Made by a program: the position numbers and the translations under genes. This document shows positions 44,279-51,376 of a stretch of 64,000 nucleotides of DNA, piece by piece; position 1 is the first letter of the stretch; each line of letters opens with the position of its first letter. The stretch spans positions 124,001-188,000 of the forward strand of contig JAJCZA010000005.1 of NCBI GenBank assembly GCA_029262635.1. The letters are read 5' to 3'. The notes under the pieces were generated by a model. It was not told the DNA's origin, made no database searches, and saw only the letters and a program-made list of their open reading frames with translations. The stretch comes from Vampirovibrionales bacterium (lineage in GTDB: Bacteria; Cyanobacteriota; Vampirovibrionia; Vampirovibrionales; Vampirovibrionaceae).

Positions 44279-45256
44279 CTAGGCCGCCATGCTACCCGCA
44301 AGAAGCGCTAATAGCTGAGGCTGTTCGGCGACCAGAAGCTGTTCCAGCTGACTGTCATCGATTTGGGCCGCCACTTGGAGCAAAAACTTATCCGGGAGAT
44401 TCGCCAAGAATTTAATCAACGTTTTATTATCGAGAACCCGGAAGGAGTTGATCATGGTGGGCTTAGACATTTTATCAAACTGCTTGAAAATAAAGGACAA
44501 ACTGACATTTTGAAGAAGGGAAGGATCTTTTTTAGTAAATCCAGTGACAAACGGGGTGAGGCCTTTGTAGGGTAGAAAGCGCATACCTTCGAGAATATGG
44601 CGTTTTTTTAGTTTCATAAAAATGGCCATCATTTCTCGCATGGAAAGGTGTTGAACATTGAGCCCCGTAATTTTGCCCAGAATAAAATGCAGGTGTTTCG
44701 GCTCCATGGTTTGAAAGCCTTTGACCAATTCCCGTACATTGAGCTTTCGGGAACGAAGGATACTCATCAATTCCTTGGCCGGCATTTTTTTCATTAACTG
44801 CTCTAAAGGAAACAGATGGAGGAGCATTTTTAACAACGTGTGCTTCGGTAATAACATCAGCAATCGGAGCAGCCTGCTTTTAGAGAAGAAGCGCAAGCCG
44901 TTAATCAGTTGGTTTTTATCCAATAAAAACAGAATACGAAGCAGATCGCCTCGTTTAAGGAGACGAAGGATCATAATTTTATTTTGAGAGACCTCTAGCC
45001 CTTTAACAATTTCATAGAGATCCAGCCCGCGATGATTAACGCCACTCTGCCGTCGGGTACCAGTCGTGTTTTTTGAACTTTTAGTTTCACGAAGGTTACT
45101 GGCCGAACCACTTCGGTTGCCTGCCCAAATTTCTTCTTCGCCAAACGCCGAATAAACAGAGCCTGTTCGAACTTCAGAAGCATCGACGTTACTACTGGAT
45201 ACCTGGGCAAGTAACGTCAGCACGTTTTCTAAATTATTGATCCCCTCGATTCGCAT
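44279..45256 (-). CDS. Basic helical-repeat protein (MgtE-N/FliG-like repeats)
   Basis: Product of 325 aa. After a 75-residue Ser/Asn-rich head, residues 80-325 are about nine short helical repeats of 22-26 residues with Leu-rich faces and Lys/Arg between them (LRLLKRGDLLRILFLLDKN and similar). This spacing is like the MgtE N domain or FliG-C superhelix, but no channel or motor part is present. No signal peptide. Strongly basic. SD is distant (GAGGA 12 nt upstream). Possible protein- or nucleic-acid-binding scaffold. Confidence 0.68.
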   Translation of the reverse strand: MRIEGINNLENVLTLLAQVSSSNVDASEVRTGSVYSAFGEEEIWAGNRSGSASNLRETKSSKNTTGTRRQSGVNHRGLDLYEIVKGLEVSQNKIMILRLLKRGDLLRILFLLDKNQLINGLRFFSKSRLLRLLMLLPKHTLLKMLLHLFPLEQLMKKMPAKELMSILRSRKLNVRELVKGFQTMEPKHLHFILGKITGLNVQHLSMREMMAIFMKLKKRHILEGMRFLPYKGLTPFVTGFTKKDPSLLQNVSLSFIFKQFDKMSKPTMINSFRVLDNKTLIKFLANLPDKFLLQVAAQIDDSQLEQLLVAEQPQLLALLAGSMAA

Positions 45257-45417: not shown

Positions 45418-46440
45418 ATGGTTCACTTCTATCCGACTCAATTGAATACGCCAAAGTCGCCAGCTTTGTCTCATGCTCCGATGCCTCAGTTTGGCTGGAA
45501 TGAGAATGACGATTTACCGGACGACTTCGGGGTGATTGATTTAAAAGAAGTGCCCGTAAAGAGCCGTCTTTCCCCTCTCCCATTCGACCGTGATTTTTTC
45601 TGGCGGCCCAACCCCTCCCATTTAGCTCTTAAGGGGTTTCCTTACGCTTCAAACGAACTGGTCGACCAAGTGGAAAATCAGCTCAAGCGAGAGGGGCCTA
45701 ATTTTCTGGAAAAGCCCGGATTTGCTTATATTGTAACGCCTTATCCATGGTCGTCCGAAGACAATGAAAATCATGTCAAAGCTCGTTATCTGGCTTTGGA
45801 TTTAATGGGACAGCTTCAAGCCCGATCAATTGTTCCCGAAACAGAACAAAGCCGAATACAAGCATCCTTTTGGAATGATTACTTGACAGGAATGCCGGGA
45901 GGGACAACCACATACAAAAAATCCCATATGGATGTTGACACCCTTCTTTTGGGGCTGGTTTACGGGCCAGAGTCGTTAGTAAAGGGAGCCTATCCACAAG
46001 TTAGCGATATACTCGATTATTTTTATACGGAGAAAGAACCGCCGAACGCTCATTTGGAAAAATTACGAGAGAGAGGGTCTGTTGTACCCACAAATTATGA
46101 CTCAGAGTCGCTTTCACCCATGCTTCAGCAACTTGAAAAAGGGTACACCCGAACCCTTAAAAAGGGGAGTGAGTTGGGGCGAATTACGATTATGGTCTTA
46201 AATAACCTTCCTGGACTCCTTCATCGGGGTGTTTTTCATGGCGCAACCCCAGGCACCTTTTTAAATCCTGAAGAAGACGTTCTATCTACAGCTCCTCGAC
46301 AACTCTATCAGATAGGAGTGCGGTTCCCGGAGTTTAACCCTCCCAAACCCGTTAAAAAATCGATTAATTTATTGATGAAGGATGGGTTAAAAGCGCTAAA
46401 TCAAATTATCGAACCCGAGCCACCATCTAAAAAAAAGTAG
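45418..46440 (+). CDS. Orphan protein with MPQFGW motif
   Basis: Product of 340 aa. Residues 23-27 (PQFGW) fit the N-terminal motif seen in other orphans. No signal peptide, TM helix or known domain. The first 60 residues look disordered (Pro-rich), the C-terminus is Pro/Lys-rich (EPEPPSKKK). The body is alpha/beta with a GTTTYKKSHMDVDTLLLGLV stretch. Two TTGACA hexamers lie just upstream (45374, 45404), neither with a good -10. A strong terminator ends it at 46541-46576. Confidence 0.7.
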   Translation: MVHFYPTQLNTPKSPALSHAPMPQFGWNENDDLPDDFGVIDLKEVPVKSRLSPLPFDRDFFWRPNPSHLALKGFPYASNELVDQVENQLKREGPNFLEKPGFAYIVTPYPWSSEDNENHVKARYLALDLMGQLQARSIVPETEQSRIQASFWNDYLTGMPGGTTTYKKSHMDVDTLLLGLVYGPESLVKGAYPQVSDILDYFYTEKEPPNAHLEKLRERGSVVPTNYDSESLSPMLQQLEKGYTRTLKKGSELGRITIMVLNNLPGLLHRGVFHGATPGTFLNPEEDVLSTAPRQLYQIGVRFPEFNPPKPVKKSINLLMKDGLKALNQIIEPEPPSKKK

Positions 46441-46576: not shown

Positions 46577-46722
46577 TTCAGATCCCTTTTTCAAATCCTT
46601 TAAAGAAGAAATACAGATGAAGATTGCGTATAATAGAGGGTAAGATTGATGAGCGGAAGCTCGGAAACACCCTGTAATAGGTCACATTGTGTTGACGATT
46701 GGACACGGAGAGGTCGGTTTCT

Positions 46723-49293
46723 ATGCGTTATTTAATGGATTTTACAAACATGAGCCCGTCAGCCATACCGTTGGCGCTATCGATAGTCTTGTTAACCGGG
46801 CTTTTCAATAGCGAGGCCATGGCGGCGAATCCATTAGCGCTGGACTATTATCATCAGGCTGTTAAGCAGGAGCGTGCTGGTGAACTAGACGAAGCCATTC
46901 GTCTGCTGAAAAAGGCCGTGAATCTAGAGCCTTACGACCAACTGAACCACATTAAATTAGCGGCACTTCATGCCCGGTTGGGTCATACAAAAGAAGCCAT
47001 CGCTTTATATCAAAAGGCGCTTCAACTGGGTTCAAGAGATCCCATGATTTATTTCAGCCTTGGCACGGTTTACGAGCAAGCCGACAATTATACCAAGGCG
47101 GAAGAGGTTTATATACTCGGGTTGAAAAATAACCCGGCCTACCAGTTTGGCCTGTTTCACCTCGGACGAGCACAGGCGCAACAAGGAAAATTTGCATTGG
47201 CCATTCAACAGTATGAAAAATTCTTGCAAGCGTACCCTAATCACTATGATAGTCGCCGGCACCTGGCCCATTTATATATGGTCACCCAAGCTGAAGAAAA
47301 CGCGGTTCAACAGTATGATGTACTGAAAAACAAGTTTCCCGAACGGTTTACCGACCACCTCGCCTTGGCCAAGGCGCTGAATCGATCTAACGAACCGGAT
47401 AAGGCACTAAAAGAATTAAAGCTGGCCTATGCCAAGGACGGAGACAAGGCCGATATTGCCGAGGAAATGGGCAATGCCCATGTGGTGCTGGGGCAGTTGC
47501 GCTATGCCATCCAGAATTATAGCAAAGCACTCGAATTGGCACCGGGTAATCCGGCCCTCTCCATTAAACTGGCCGAACTCTATGTGACAGATCAACAGCC
47601 CGAACTGTCGATCAAACACTATAAAACTTACTTAAACGAGTATCCGAACGATTCGAACGCTCGAAAAGCCTTAACTCATGTGTACCTCAAAACAAAAAAA
47701 TACCCAGAAGCCATTACCCTATTAAAAACCCAAATCCAAAACTTGCCCAAGGAAACAGGAGTCGATAAACGTTACCAACTGGAAAAACAATTGGCTTTTT
47801 CTTACCAGATGAACAAAAATTTACCCACTGCGATTCAACACTATGAAGGTTTACTCAATAGCGAACTAGGCCGAGGGGACGTGCAACTACAAAAAAACCT
47901 AGCCATCGCCTACCATGAGACCAACGCACTAGAAAAAGCCATTCCGCTTTATCGAGGCGTCTACACTTCGGATCCGAAACATTACGGGACACTGGGAAAC
48001 GATTTGGCCAATGCACTAGTCCATGTGGGTGACCTCATGTTTAAACAACAGAACTTAAACGGAGCGCTGACTCAGTATGAAGAAGCGCAAAAATACGTTA
48101 AAAAAGACAATATCAGTCCGTTGATTGGCATGGCGCGGGTGCATTGGGAACACCGACTGGATCCCCATTACCCGGAAGCCTCCGAAGCGGCGTATGACAC
48201 TTACCGCAAAATTTTAAAGCAACGCCCCGACGATGAGCGGGCATTGGTTGGCTTGGCCCGTCTAGATTTTGAAAAAGGGGCAATCGAAAAAGCACTTTCC
48301 CGGCTGGGGCCTTTCGCTCAGATCAACACGACCCGTCCGGCGGTATTTATCGCGATGGCCGATATCTATCAAGCCAATGGCAATACAGCGCAAGCCGTCA
48401 CCACTTATGAACGAGCGCTGAGTCTTCAATCCGACAATGATACGCTTATGATTGAATTGGGCCGCCTGTGGCAGGAATTGGGCAATCCGAACGAATCTTT
48501 AAAGTGGTTTGAGCAGGCTCGAAAAAGCAACCCCAATAACGCAATGGCACATTATAATCTGGGCGTCTTATATGGGGAGACGGGACGGCTGATCGAGTCG
48601 GAGGTAGCGTACCAAAAAACACTCGCATTAGCGCCCCAGTTTGAAAACGCCCTCTATGGATTAGCGGTAACGCAGGAAAAGCAGAAAAAGTTCAGAGATG
48701 CTTTGGCCTCATATGAACGGTACACCACGTATCAAGAGGGGGGGTATCTTGCCGAAGCGAAAGCCCGTATCGCGATTCTAAGGGAGCAGTTGAAGGCGAC
48801 ACCCGAAAAGTCGGAACAACCCTTAGCCATGCCTGTTCCTAAAGTGCCTGAGCCGAACTTTGGAACGCCCGTTTTGGATACCCTGAGCGTGCAGAAGCAT
48901 ACTTCAAAAAGCAAAGAGACGTTTCAGGAAAAGGAGCCTCTCAGAAAAGTAATTAATGAGCCCATCGGCCAACCCAAGCCAGATGAATTGATAAAAAAAC
49001 CCACACCACAGCAATTATTACCGCCCTTAAACCAGCCAGAACAAAAAGAGACTCGCTTGTTAGACGACGTTTTAGAGAAAGAGGTTTTTAAAGAACCGGC
49101 GTCATCACCCTCACTCAAAAAACAGGAGACCTCCCCCGCCTATCATGCGGTGACCGGTATGTCTGAAGTTAATACGGATTCAAACAAACACTTGTCATCG
49201 CCTTCCAAGAACGATACGCTACCCAAACGCTGGGAGCCCATCGCGCCATTTGAAAAAGCACCGTTTGATGAGCCGACTCAGCCAACAAATTAA
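46723..49293 (+). CDS. Large secreted TPR protein
   Basis: Product of 856 aa from the ATG at 46723 (GAGAGGT 8 nt upstream); the frame opens at a TTG at 46699 but the SD would then be inside. Signal peptide 1-35 (SIVLLTGLFNSEAMAAN). About 16 TPR units run from residue 37 to 690, with canonical pairs such as NYTKAEEVYILGLKNNP. The last 160 residues are low-complexity, Pro/Lys/Glu-rich. It is probably a periplasmic or outer-membrane-linked scaffold. The MBL-fold gene starts 31 bp later. Confidence 0.85.
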   Translation: MRYLMDFTNMSPSAIPLALSIVLLTGLFNSEAMAANPLALDYYHQAVKQERAGELDEAIRLLKKAVNLEPYDQLNHIKLAALHARLGHTKEAIALYQKALQLGSRDPMIYFSLGTVYEQADNYTKAEEVYILGLKNNPAYQFGLFHLGRAQAQQGKFALAIQQYEKFLQAYPNHYDSRRHLAHLYMVTQAEENAVQQYDVLKNKFPERFTDHLALAKALNRSNEPDKALKELKLAYAKDGDKADIAEEMGNAHVVLGQLRYAIQNYSKALELAPGNPALSIKLAELYVTDQQPELSIKHYKTYLNEYPNDSNARKALTHVYLKTKKYPEAITLLKTQIQNLPKETGVDKRYQLEKQLAFSYQMNKNLPTAIQHYEGLLNSELGRGDVQLQKNLAIAYHETNALEKAIPLYRGVYTSDPKHYGTLGNDLANALVHVGDLMFKQQNLNGALTQYEEAQKYVKKDNISPLIGMARVHWEHRLDPHYPEASEAAYDTYRKILKQRPDDERALVGLARLDFEKGAIEKALSRLGPFAQINTTRPAVFIAMADIYQANGNTAQAVTTYERALSLQSDNDTLMIELGRLWQELGNPNESLKWFEQARKSNPNNAMAHYNLGVLYGETGRLIESEVAYQKTLALAPQFENALYGLAVTQEKQKKFRDALASYERYTTYQEGGYLAEAKARIAILREQLKATPEKSEQPLAMPVPKVPEPNFGTPVLDTLSVQKHTSKSKETFQEKEPLRKVINEPIGQPKPDELIKKPTPQQLLPPLNQPEQKETRLLDDVLEKEVFKEPASSPSLKKQETSPAYHAVTGMSEVNTDSNKHLSSPSKNDTLPKRWEPIAPFEKAPFDEPTQPTN

Positions 49294-49324: not shown

Positions 49325-49969
49325 ATGGCTGTTGAAACGTTTGTACATAAACCTTACGAAATCAATTCGTATCTGGTTTGGGATGAAAGCAGTCGAGATG
49401 CTCTGCTGATTGATATTGGTGGTCAGGTCCAACCCATTCTGGATAGCCTGAAGCAACATGAACTAATGCTGGAAGATGTATTTCACACCCATCCCTTTTT
49501 AGAATATTTACAAGGTCAGCCCCAGCTTCGAGAAACTCTGGATCTGGTTGCGCATATGAATCCCATTGATGAATTCTGGCTTGCTCATCTGGATACACAG
49601 GCAACCATTCTGGGAGCCGAGGCGCCACAGGCTTATGTGGATCAACAAATTTTTCCAGAGGATGTGGTTCAAGTGGGCACCATTGAAATACAAGCGCTGG
49701 ATACACCAGGCAATACGCCGGGTGGGGTTAGCTTCTATTTACCTTCGTTTCAGATTGTGTTTGTGGGAGATGTGATGACAGCCAAGGCAATGGGGCCAAC
49801 CGATGTTCCTCATGGAAGTGAGAGCCGCCTCAAACAATCCATTGAAGAACAGATTTTTACCCTGCCGGAGATGACGGTGATTTATCCGGGACGAGGCCCT
49901 TCGACTACGGTCAAAGAGGCCAAAACACATAACTCATTGGTTTCTCAGCCTTATGCGATGAAACGCTAG
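49325..49969 (+). CDS. Metallo-beta-lactamase-fold pseudoenzyme
   Basis: Product of 214 aa with the glyoxalase II-like MBL order: NSYLVWD, LIDIGG, HTHPFLEY, DTPGNTPGGVSFYLP, VFVGDV and YPGRGPSTT. The metal-binding motif HxHxDH has become HTHPFLEY, the third His is N130 (normally TPGHTPG) and the fourth is R190 (normally GHGPxT). Only D149 of the GD motif remains. Thus most zinc ligands are gone. It may be a structural or regulatory relative of the family. It lies 31 bp after the TPR gene and overlaps the pgeF stop by 4 bp. Confidence 0.85.
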   Translation: MAVETFVHKPYEINSYLVWDESSRDALLIDIGGQVQPILDSLKQHELMLEDVFHTHPFLEYLQGQPQLRETLDLVAHMNPIDEFWLAHLDTQATILGAEAPQAYVDQQIFPEDVVQVGTIEIQALDTPGNTPGGVSFYLPSFQIVFVGDVMTAKAMGPTDVPHGSESRLKQSIEEQIFTLPEMTVIYPGRGPSTTVKEAKTHNSLVSQPYAMKR

Positions 49970-50781
49970 ACTTTTACTGACAGCAATTGAAGAAAAAGGG
50001 CTTGTCGTCCGGTGTCCCCTTTACGGTGTGACCAGAACCGATCGTTATGCTCCACAGTGCAAAAGGGCAGAATATCAATCTGATGAATACCCACGCTTTT
50101 AAGCTGGTAAGCGTTGATGGTTTTAAGGTCAATAAGCGGTTTATTATTCGGGCTTTCGCCTTGGTAAACATCAACGGGGATATGGGGCGGCAAAGATTCT
50201 CTTAAAGCCAGAGCGACTTCAGGAGAGACTTCATAGTGAGCGCCGGTAATGGCAGGGCCAATGACAGCAATCATATGCTGAGGCACGCATCGATAATCCT
50301 TTTGCATCCGGTCAGCCGTTTTTGCCGCAATACTTTGAGCCGTACCTCGCCAACCCGCATGGATGACAGCCCCCACATGTTGATCCGGTGAGTACAGCAA
50401 GATGGGAACGCAATCGGCTGTTTGAATCATGACGGGCTGGTTGGGGGTTGTCAGGATAATGGCATCACAGGCACTAAAATCAGTATCATCTGAGGGTTTA
50501 ATATAACTAGAATGGATTTGGTCTGGAATAATCAGAGGGGTATCTGAAAGATTAAGCTGTTGACAAAGGCGTTGACGTTGGAGCTGAATCTCTTTCCTTG
50601 TGTGAGACGTGCCGCCCAGCGATTGAGGTTTGCCGGTAAAACCGTAAATCACCCGGTTAGTGTAGGTATTTAGGTGATTGGATTGGTACAATAGAAAGGG
50701 TGCTTCTAATAACAGATCCGCTTCTTTTGGATCCGGCAAGTTTGAGGCATGGTTTGAAGTGATATCGGCAGGATGGGTCAT
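49966..50781 (-). CDS. pgeF: Laccase-domain protein (PgeF/YfiH family)
   Basis: Product of 271 aa from the ATG at 50781. The motifs QTADCVPILL, GAVIHAGWRGT and EVSPEVALAL with a late HRKGDTGRQ are diagnostic of the family once called polyphenol oxidase. E. coli PgeF removes L-Ser misplaced in peptidoglycan precursors; others act as adenosine phosphorylases or deaminases. Conserved His and Cys for zinc are present (H75-like TRKEIQL area not obvious; ADC and HAGWR clear). Its start codon overlaps that of the divergent gene at 50780. Confidence 0.92.
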   Translation of the reverse strand: MTHPADITSNHASNLPDPKEADLLLEAPFLLYQSNHLNTYTNRVIYGFTGKPQSLGGTSHTRKEIQLQRQRLCQQLNLSDTPLIIPDQIHSSYIKPSDDTDFSACDAIILTTPNQPVMIQTADCVPILLYSPDQHVGAVIHAGWRGTAQSIAAKTADRMQKDYRCVPQHMIAVIGPAITGAHYEVSPEVALALRESLPPHIPVDVYQGESPNNKPLIDLKTINAYQLKSVGIHQIDILPFCTVEHNDRFWSHRKGDTGRQALFLQLLSVKV

Positions 50782-51376
50782 GAGACAGTTTCCATTATCA
50801 ACAGGTTTTATTTTATCGGCTTTAGGGGGCATTTGTCTTGTGTTTGTTTGGGGTAGCGGAATGCTATCTGTTCATGCACAAAATATGGACACCCTAACCG
50901 GTGAGCCGAAAGCGCTTGATACGGCTAATTCAACAACAAAATCGGTCGAGATCAGCATGATGCCCCATAAACAGATTTTTTCTCGTCGGGAAGGCCTTAT
51001 GGTTTCTTTTGTTTTTAAGGCCCTGGAGCCAGCTCGAATTTGTTTTGAAAAAGACCCCATAAGCCAATTTCAATTCAAGATCATCCGTTCCGGTAAGGGC
51101 AAGCTAAATTTGGCGCCTTTGGTGGTTCAGGATACGCGCCGCCTCTTTGGTCAACGGCCTAAAATTTTTCATTTGAACTCGGGCGATACACATACCTACC
51201 GGCTGAATTTGAAACGGATTCATTTTTTGAGTGGCGAAAAATGGATGCCCGGCGACTACAGTGTGGAAGCCTCATTCCGCTTGTGTGAACAACGAGAAAA
51301 CAACGATTGGCAGGAAACCGATGTAGAAACATCGGTTCCTGTGGTCCGACCTGCCCGGTTTATGATTATGAATTAG
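50780..51376 (+). CDS. Secreted hypothetical protein
   Basis: Product of 198 aa. ATG at 50780 with AGGA 6 nt upstream; a longer frame to 50678 would delay the signal peptide. Residues 1-35 form the signal peptide (FILSALGGICLVFVWGSGML, then VHAQN). The mature part is beta-rich with an Ig-like pattern (LMVSFVFKALEPARICFE). Two cysteines are present. Start codon shares two bases with pgeF on the other strand. Function unknown. Confidence 0.72.
   Translation: MRQFPLSTGFILSALGGICLVFVWGSGMLSVHAQNMDTLTGEPKALDTANSTTKSVEISMMPHKQIFSRREGLMVSFVFKALEPARICFEKDPISQFQFKIIRSGKGKLNLAPLVVQDTRRLFGQRPKIFHLNSGDTHTYRLNLKRIHFLSGEKWMPGDYSVEASFRLCEQRENNDWQETDVETSVPVVRPARFMIMN

Follow-up and report, generated by a model that had tools for sequence, protein, structure and literature searches.

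A conserved metallo-beta-lactamase-fold relative of YcbL has lost most of its metal ligands in three genera of Vampirovibrionales

The window analysed here, a 64,000-nucleotide stretch of a Vampirovibrionales contig (JAJCZA010000005.1, positions 124,001 to 188,000), carries at positions 49325-49969 of its forward strand an open frame that starts with ATG, has no internal stop and encodes a metallo-beta-lactamase (MBL)-fold protein of 214 residues. The gene lies 31 bp downstream of one for a TPR-repeat protein (46699-49293, forward strand; 864 residues from a TTG start, with an N terminus that by eye resembles a signal peptide), and this spacing confirms the one given in an earlier note on this DNA. 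On the other side, the stop codon of the MBL gene overlaps by 4 bp with a convergent pgeF-like gene (Cu-oxidase_4; 49966-50832, reverse strand), homologues of which are also found at the locus in G005, G010, G014, G004, G006, G008 and G009 (labels such as G001 to G016 denote genomes of the order to which the window's genome belongs, 18 of which were examined). A divergent conserved gene at 44279-45256 (reverse strand, 325 residues), whose MgtE_N match of 15.6 bits (E 0.024) falls below the cut-off of 25.9, has homologues at the locus in G001, G003, G004, G005, G006, G008 and G009. Between it and the TPR gene is a 340-residue open frame (45418-46440, forward strand) with no Pfam match up to an E-value of 1; at 1e-8 the loci of G001, G003 and G005 contain nothing that corresponds to it. 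Another forward-strand frame, 50678-51376, has a homologue at the locus in G005, G008, G009 and G010; its true start may be further downstream, since the called one falls inside the pgeF-like gene on the opposite strand. Neither a promoter scan (2 against a mean of 4.9) nor a terminator scan (5 against 4.7) did better than shuffled sequence.

The MBL protein matches Pfam Lactamase_B (PF00753) with 42.7 bits against a cut-off of 22.7, and its best structure match is also a member of this superfamily, Salmonella YcbL (2xf4). An AlphaFold model computed from 39 of the 48 rows of the alignment described below (mean pLDDT 93.3, pTM 0.90) superimposed on 2xf4 with a TM score of 0.93 and an rmsd of 1.4. 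By eye there is no signal peptide, and the first strand of the model begins at once. A profile of three sequences, namely the window protein and the two homologues in G003 and G001 that share its ligand loss, likewise had 2xf4 as its top match among PDB sequences (2.4e-31). With only these three rows as input, AlphaFold returned strands and helices much alike at a pLDDT of 68.1 and a pTM of 0.71, with values below 50 at residues 59-64, 99-107 and 150-163, which take in parts of the lid and the site loops. The window protein resembles YcbL/GLXII-2 in length, fold, single-domain architecture and the alpha-3 lid, whose DEFWL..L..Q helix aligns with YcbL residues 83-97. The ETHE1 persulfide dioxygenase, also of the MBL fold, was a weaker match (4chl, TM 0.81), and the PDB matches included an MBL-domain assembly factor of the trypanosome mitoribosome (6sg9_FL, 9hny_FL). 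The GloB glyoxalase II equivalog TIGR03413 gave 58.9 bits against a cut-off of 200.8; this model cannot separate stripped from intact proteins, because the four intact relatives scanned also failed it (76-98 bits). The descent of the protein from a glyoxalase-II-like enzyme is supported.

The metal ligands of YcbL have been reported as H56, H58, D60, H61, H132, D151 and H192 (PMC8431146). We aligned the window protein with 47 homologues (48 rows, after dropping L001, L003, L005, L048, L050, L051 and L055 as repeats of included genes) and mapped these positions from YcbL. The corresponding residues are H56, F58, E60, Y61, N130, D149 and R190: four of the seven are of another type, position 60 shows a conservative change from Asp to Glu, and only H56 and D149 remain. 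The protein thus lacks the YcbL/GLXII-2 ligand set, in agreement with the earlier proposal of an MBL-fold protein with most of its zinc ligands gone. That proposal had placed the degenerate HxHxDH motif on HTHPFLEY (residues 54-61); the degeneracy is real, but the register is not, because the alignment puts HxHxDH on HPFLEY (H56-P-F58-L-E60-Y61; 49490-49507, forward strand), so that H54 is not a ligand position and H56 is retained. Two further substitutions that it had named were borne out by the same alignment. In TPGNTPG (residues 127-133, for TPGHTPG), N130 replaces the zinc-1 histidine, H132 in YcbL (49712-49714, forward strand), and in GRGPST (residues 189-194, for GHGPxT), R190 replaces the zinc-2 histidine, H192 in YcbL (49892-49894, forward strand). 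The bridging aspartate D149 (D151 in YcbL; 49769-49771, forward strand) lies in VGDV, residues 147-150.

The same seven positions read H, F, D, T, C, D, R in the G003 homologue and H, F, E, C, I, D, R in that of G001. All three stripped proteins therefore share D149, F58 and R190, while positions 61 (Y/T/C) and 130 (N/C/I) are free to vary. No further stripped protein was seen in the other 45 rows, 42 of which have the full ligand set; L046, L047 and L049 have Glu for Asp in HxHxDH and retain every histidine. We read 28 more loci, and found the G003 and G001 genes again in two of them and intact proteins in the remaining 26, four of which repeat genes of the earlier alignment.

The G003 (49% identity) and G001 (47%) proteins, both from other genera of the same family and both encoded by open frames, are also the closest homologues of the window protein, and those with intact ligands, some of them at the same locus, are more distant (31-36% identity). 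The earlier note had suggested aligning relatives to see whether the substitutions recur, and had held that close homologues with restored ligands would point to a recent decay in this genome. We found the reverse: the two nearest homologues lack ligands at the same positions and carry the same F58 and R190. The loss is thus not a recent decay of a single genome. We searched 382 genomes of the class, among them all those examined from the order; three scored as the stripped form, at 387-406 bits, and the next best match scored 156. In an overlapping sample of 386 genomes of the phylum, two passed 1e-48, the window's genome and G001; G003 would pass as well and was evidently not drawn into this sample. 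Scanning the GTDB genome collection with two tight patterns, which may omit the window's own genome and miss more distant forms, gave 28 matches, two of which are relatives and apparently the G003 and G001 genes. A pattern search of viral contigs matched two stretches, neither of which encodes a relative.

In a 70-row gene tree the three stripped proteins formed one clade (SH-aLRT 97). Their genomes likewise grouped together on a FusA tree, which holds 17 of the 18 genomes because no FusA match turned up in G009. Support for this group was 88/91, below the starred level, and families f1 and f2 are mixed on the tree. The ligand loss was therefore probably one old event. The gene tree does not settle where the stripped clade attaches, although the three intact syntenic proteins are nearest by path, and the orthology of the intact syntenic genes rests on synteny. 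Because most dS values were saturated, we give raw proportions: among the stripped trio pN was 0.36-0.37 and pS 0.69-0.83 (pN/pS about 0.43-0.54), and the second YcbL-like copy of the same three genomes, described below, had a pN of 0.25-0.33 and a pS of 0.72-0.87. By these counts, the stripped protein is somewhat less constrained than the second copy, yet far from free. Ligand loss combined with conservation of the gene in several lineages, the mark of an MBL pseudoenzyme, is thus seen here in three genera with pN below pS. We conclude that the product of 49325-49969 is a genuine, conserved, ligand-stripped YcbL relative.

The claim that ligands were lost in an ordered way within an intact frame was not supported as worded. 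Thirty-one residues are invariant in seven intact proteins, and the stripped trio keep two of the seven ligands among them and 14 of the 24 others; losses of 5/7 (a count that includes position 60, E/D/E) against 10/24 do not significantly single out the ligands (p=0.22). Positions 61 and 130 vary freely, and most substrate contacts have changed too. Docking has placed at least seven substrate contacts of YcbL outside the metal positions (PMC8431146), and of these seven only Q93 and G159 are retained in all three stripped proteins. The others read L for F97, T/Y/R for F154, M/L/L for V158, P for R160 and V/I/L for F163. The three intact syntenic proteins match YcbL at every listed contact except V158 (I), and in the three second copies compared F163 is L, with F97 replaced by Y in one of them. 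The change at F163 is thus not diagnostic, because second copies carry Leu there as well.

The lid region, alpha-3 with its flanks (residues 74-108; 49544-49648, forward strand), is where the stripped trio are most alike: 22 of its 35 residues are invariant, compared with 47 of the 179 outside it (p 5e-5, for a region picked after seeing the alignment). A window scan with shuffles, which corrects for this choice, gave as good a best window in 9 of 5000 shuffles at a width of 35, 4 of 5000 at 45 and 136 of 5000 at 25. The same residues number 11/35 invariants in the intact trio and 16/35 in the second-copy trio, whose best windows lie elsewhere; overall divergence is not equal among the trios. 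The DEFWL..L..Q helix was considered as a novelty of the stripped clade and rejected, as YcbL has the same helix, and so only part of the lid is particular to these proteins. Among ten proteins, the residues found in the stripped trio alone are H77, A87, D90, L96, Q102, A103, V105, Q107 and Q108. Judged from these patterns of conservation, a new binding surface would most plausibly lie in the lid.

The surroundings of the gene differ across the order. In G005, G010 and G014, which represent two families, an intact orthologue follows immediately 3' of the TPR gene. In G002, G004, G006, G008 and G009 the TPR gene is present, and tblastn, with a working positive control, found neither an MBL gene nor a remnant 3' of it; the sole match at these five loci (E 0.39) lies upstream of the TPR gene of G008. 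In G007, G012, G016 and the four genomes of f3, it was the genome-wide search that gave no syntenic gene. Among the stripped genomes, all three of which have the divergent gene in place, G001 has the TPR gene as well (30% identity over about half), and G003 keeps the stripped MBL gene with no TPR gene at the locus or elsewhere in the genome at the thresholds used. Its divergent gene and its stripped gene are about 250 bp apart (L057 7345-9254). Our search with the window TPR protein at 1e-60 was strict and missed the G001 gene that is present, and a second search used the G001 protein as query at 1e-20; G007 gave no TPR match at the thresholds used. These observations show that the coupling to the TPR gene, which the earlier note had pointed out, is old and dispensable. 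The adjacency stands, but it says little of the role of the stripped protein, because intact enzymes have it and G003 lacks it. The TPR protein was considered as a functional partner and downgraded, since G003 keeps the stripped gene without it.

The window's own genome encodes a second YcbL-like copy (contig C2, 460575-461225). Such a copy was found in 15 of the 18 genomes of the order (217-510 bits), always with the full ligand set (15/15). In the 18-genome search it was not found in G005, G010 and G014, where the best match was the syntenic orthologue (99-103 bits); the other matches in G005 and G014 fall in a distinct class of longer MBL proteins. The order also has a third MBL class (L039, L040, L041, L042, L044, L045 and L056), which comprises open frames of 286-310 residues with an intact HxHxDH, and some of its members match the query in two pieces. 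Every one of the 18 genomes thus has exactly one intact copy, syntenic or second, and genomes that have the second copy either lack the one at the locus or, in three genera, have it in stripped form. On the FusA tree this correlation carries no statistical weight, because two independent copy switches suffice to explain it (sign test p 0.5), and in G010, G014 and G005, which are 91-93% complete, any single absence could be a gene that was missed.

Several known proteins offer comparisons. YcbL/GLXII-2 itself, alike in architecture, differs in that here four of seven ligands are replaced, one more is changed from Asp to Glu and most substrate contacts are altered. Arabidopsis GLX2-1, a GLXII relative in which Arg replaces one of the metal-binding histidines and the substrate residues are changed, does not act as a glyoxalase 2 but has a role under stress (PMC3997514); this plant protein has lost one metal ligand, whereas the bacterial window protein has four replaced. 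In INTS9 and CPSF100 the HxHxDH motif is destroyed, the fold is kept and the partner is an active paralogue (PMC7980224, PMC4819959), but these belong to the nuclease branch with a beta-CASP domain and the window protein is a single small domain. The C-terminal domain of ComEC calls for caution, as a changed ligand there goes with metal-dependent activity (PMC8579336). The MBL-fold pseudoenzymes in the literature consulted are eukaryotic (RNA processing and one plant glyoxalase relative), and titles and abstract openings of the open-licence PMC literature yielded no description of a stripped YcbL-type protein.

We consider it reasonably probable, on three stripped sequences, that the product of 49325-49969 is a binding pseudoenzyme derived from a thioester hydrolase of the YcbL/GLXII-2 type, which is the likeliest reading. 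The earlier note had argued for a non-hydrolase role under selection; such a role fits best, but its claimed basis in ordered ligand loss was not supported. An ancestor would have had both copies, the spare one being released from hydrolysis and recruited in one lineage to bind or scaffold other molecules in the cytosol. A salt bridge between R190, D149 and the acidic residue 60 probably takes the former zinc-2 place, and F58 probably occupies the zinc-1 site; with these in place, the fold would need no metal. The lid, which covers the former active site and is now the most conserved part, would then probably offer the surface that a ligand or partner contacts. A bolder version, in which the lid of the former glyoxalase has become a new zinc-free binding or catalytic centre, with an arginine-acid cluster in place of the metals and residues 74-108 reading a ligand or partner, is speculative, and we would give it perhaps one chance in four.

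A remodelled metalloenzyme, in which H56, E/D60 and D149, perhaps with H77, H88, D82, D90 or D106 of the lid, hold one metal for a different reaction, seems to us rather unlikely. GLX2-1 still binds two metals despite its change from His to Arg (PMC3997514). H56 and D149 are retained in all three stripped proteins, which also share an acid at 60 and several potentially metal-binding lid residues. ETHE1 has three iron ligands; H56 and D149 correspond to two of them and position 130 to the third. These positions read H, N/C/I and D in the stripped proteins and so depart from the ETHE1 set, and the Ile found at 130 has a side chain incapable of binding metal. R190, moreover, places a positive charge at the zinc-2 position, and H88, D82 and D106 are no sign of a new site, because the intact G005 protein has them too.

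Slow decay, by which a redundant and weakly constrained copy without a new role is heading for deletion as in sister genera, would account for the clean absence of the gene from other genomes of the family, for the two freely varying ligand positions and the loss of other family-invariant residues, and for an identity between genera of 46-48%, where the second copies of these genomes share 58-65%. We regard it as improbable, since silent differences are saturated or nearly so and yet all three frames are open with a pN/pS of about 0.43-0.54, the lid is sharply conserved, and F58 and R190 are identical in all three. Least probable, with little in its favour to our minds, is a regulatory subunit, which would have either the intact second copy or the TPR protein as its partner, in the way that INTS9 has INTS11. 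INTS9 and CPSF100 are precedents for it (PMC7980224, PMC4819959), the TPR gene lies 31 bp upstream, and all three stripped genomes retain the second copy. This co-occurrence is uninformative, however, because the second copy is present in all genomes of the order that lack an intact gene at the locus; YcbL has been reported to be a monomer (PMC8431146), the TPR protein appears by eye to be secreted and the stripped protein does not, and the G003 locus has no TPR gene.

To return to the binding pseudoenzyme, the retention of the gene in three related genera suggests that a spare enzyme evolved into a protein that binds rather than cuts, and a second intact copy could explain the freedom of the first to change. 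For annotation the case is a warning, as a family search alone gives the label of metallo-beta-lactamase superfamily and hides the lost ligands. Within one bacterial order, the same gene is intact, stripped or missing at the same place, so that the change from an enzyme into a non-enzyme can be tested on one protein after another. If the bolder version, with the lid as a zinc-free centre, is true, these versions at one place would show an enzyme becoming a binding protein.
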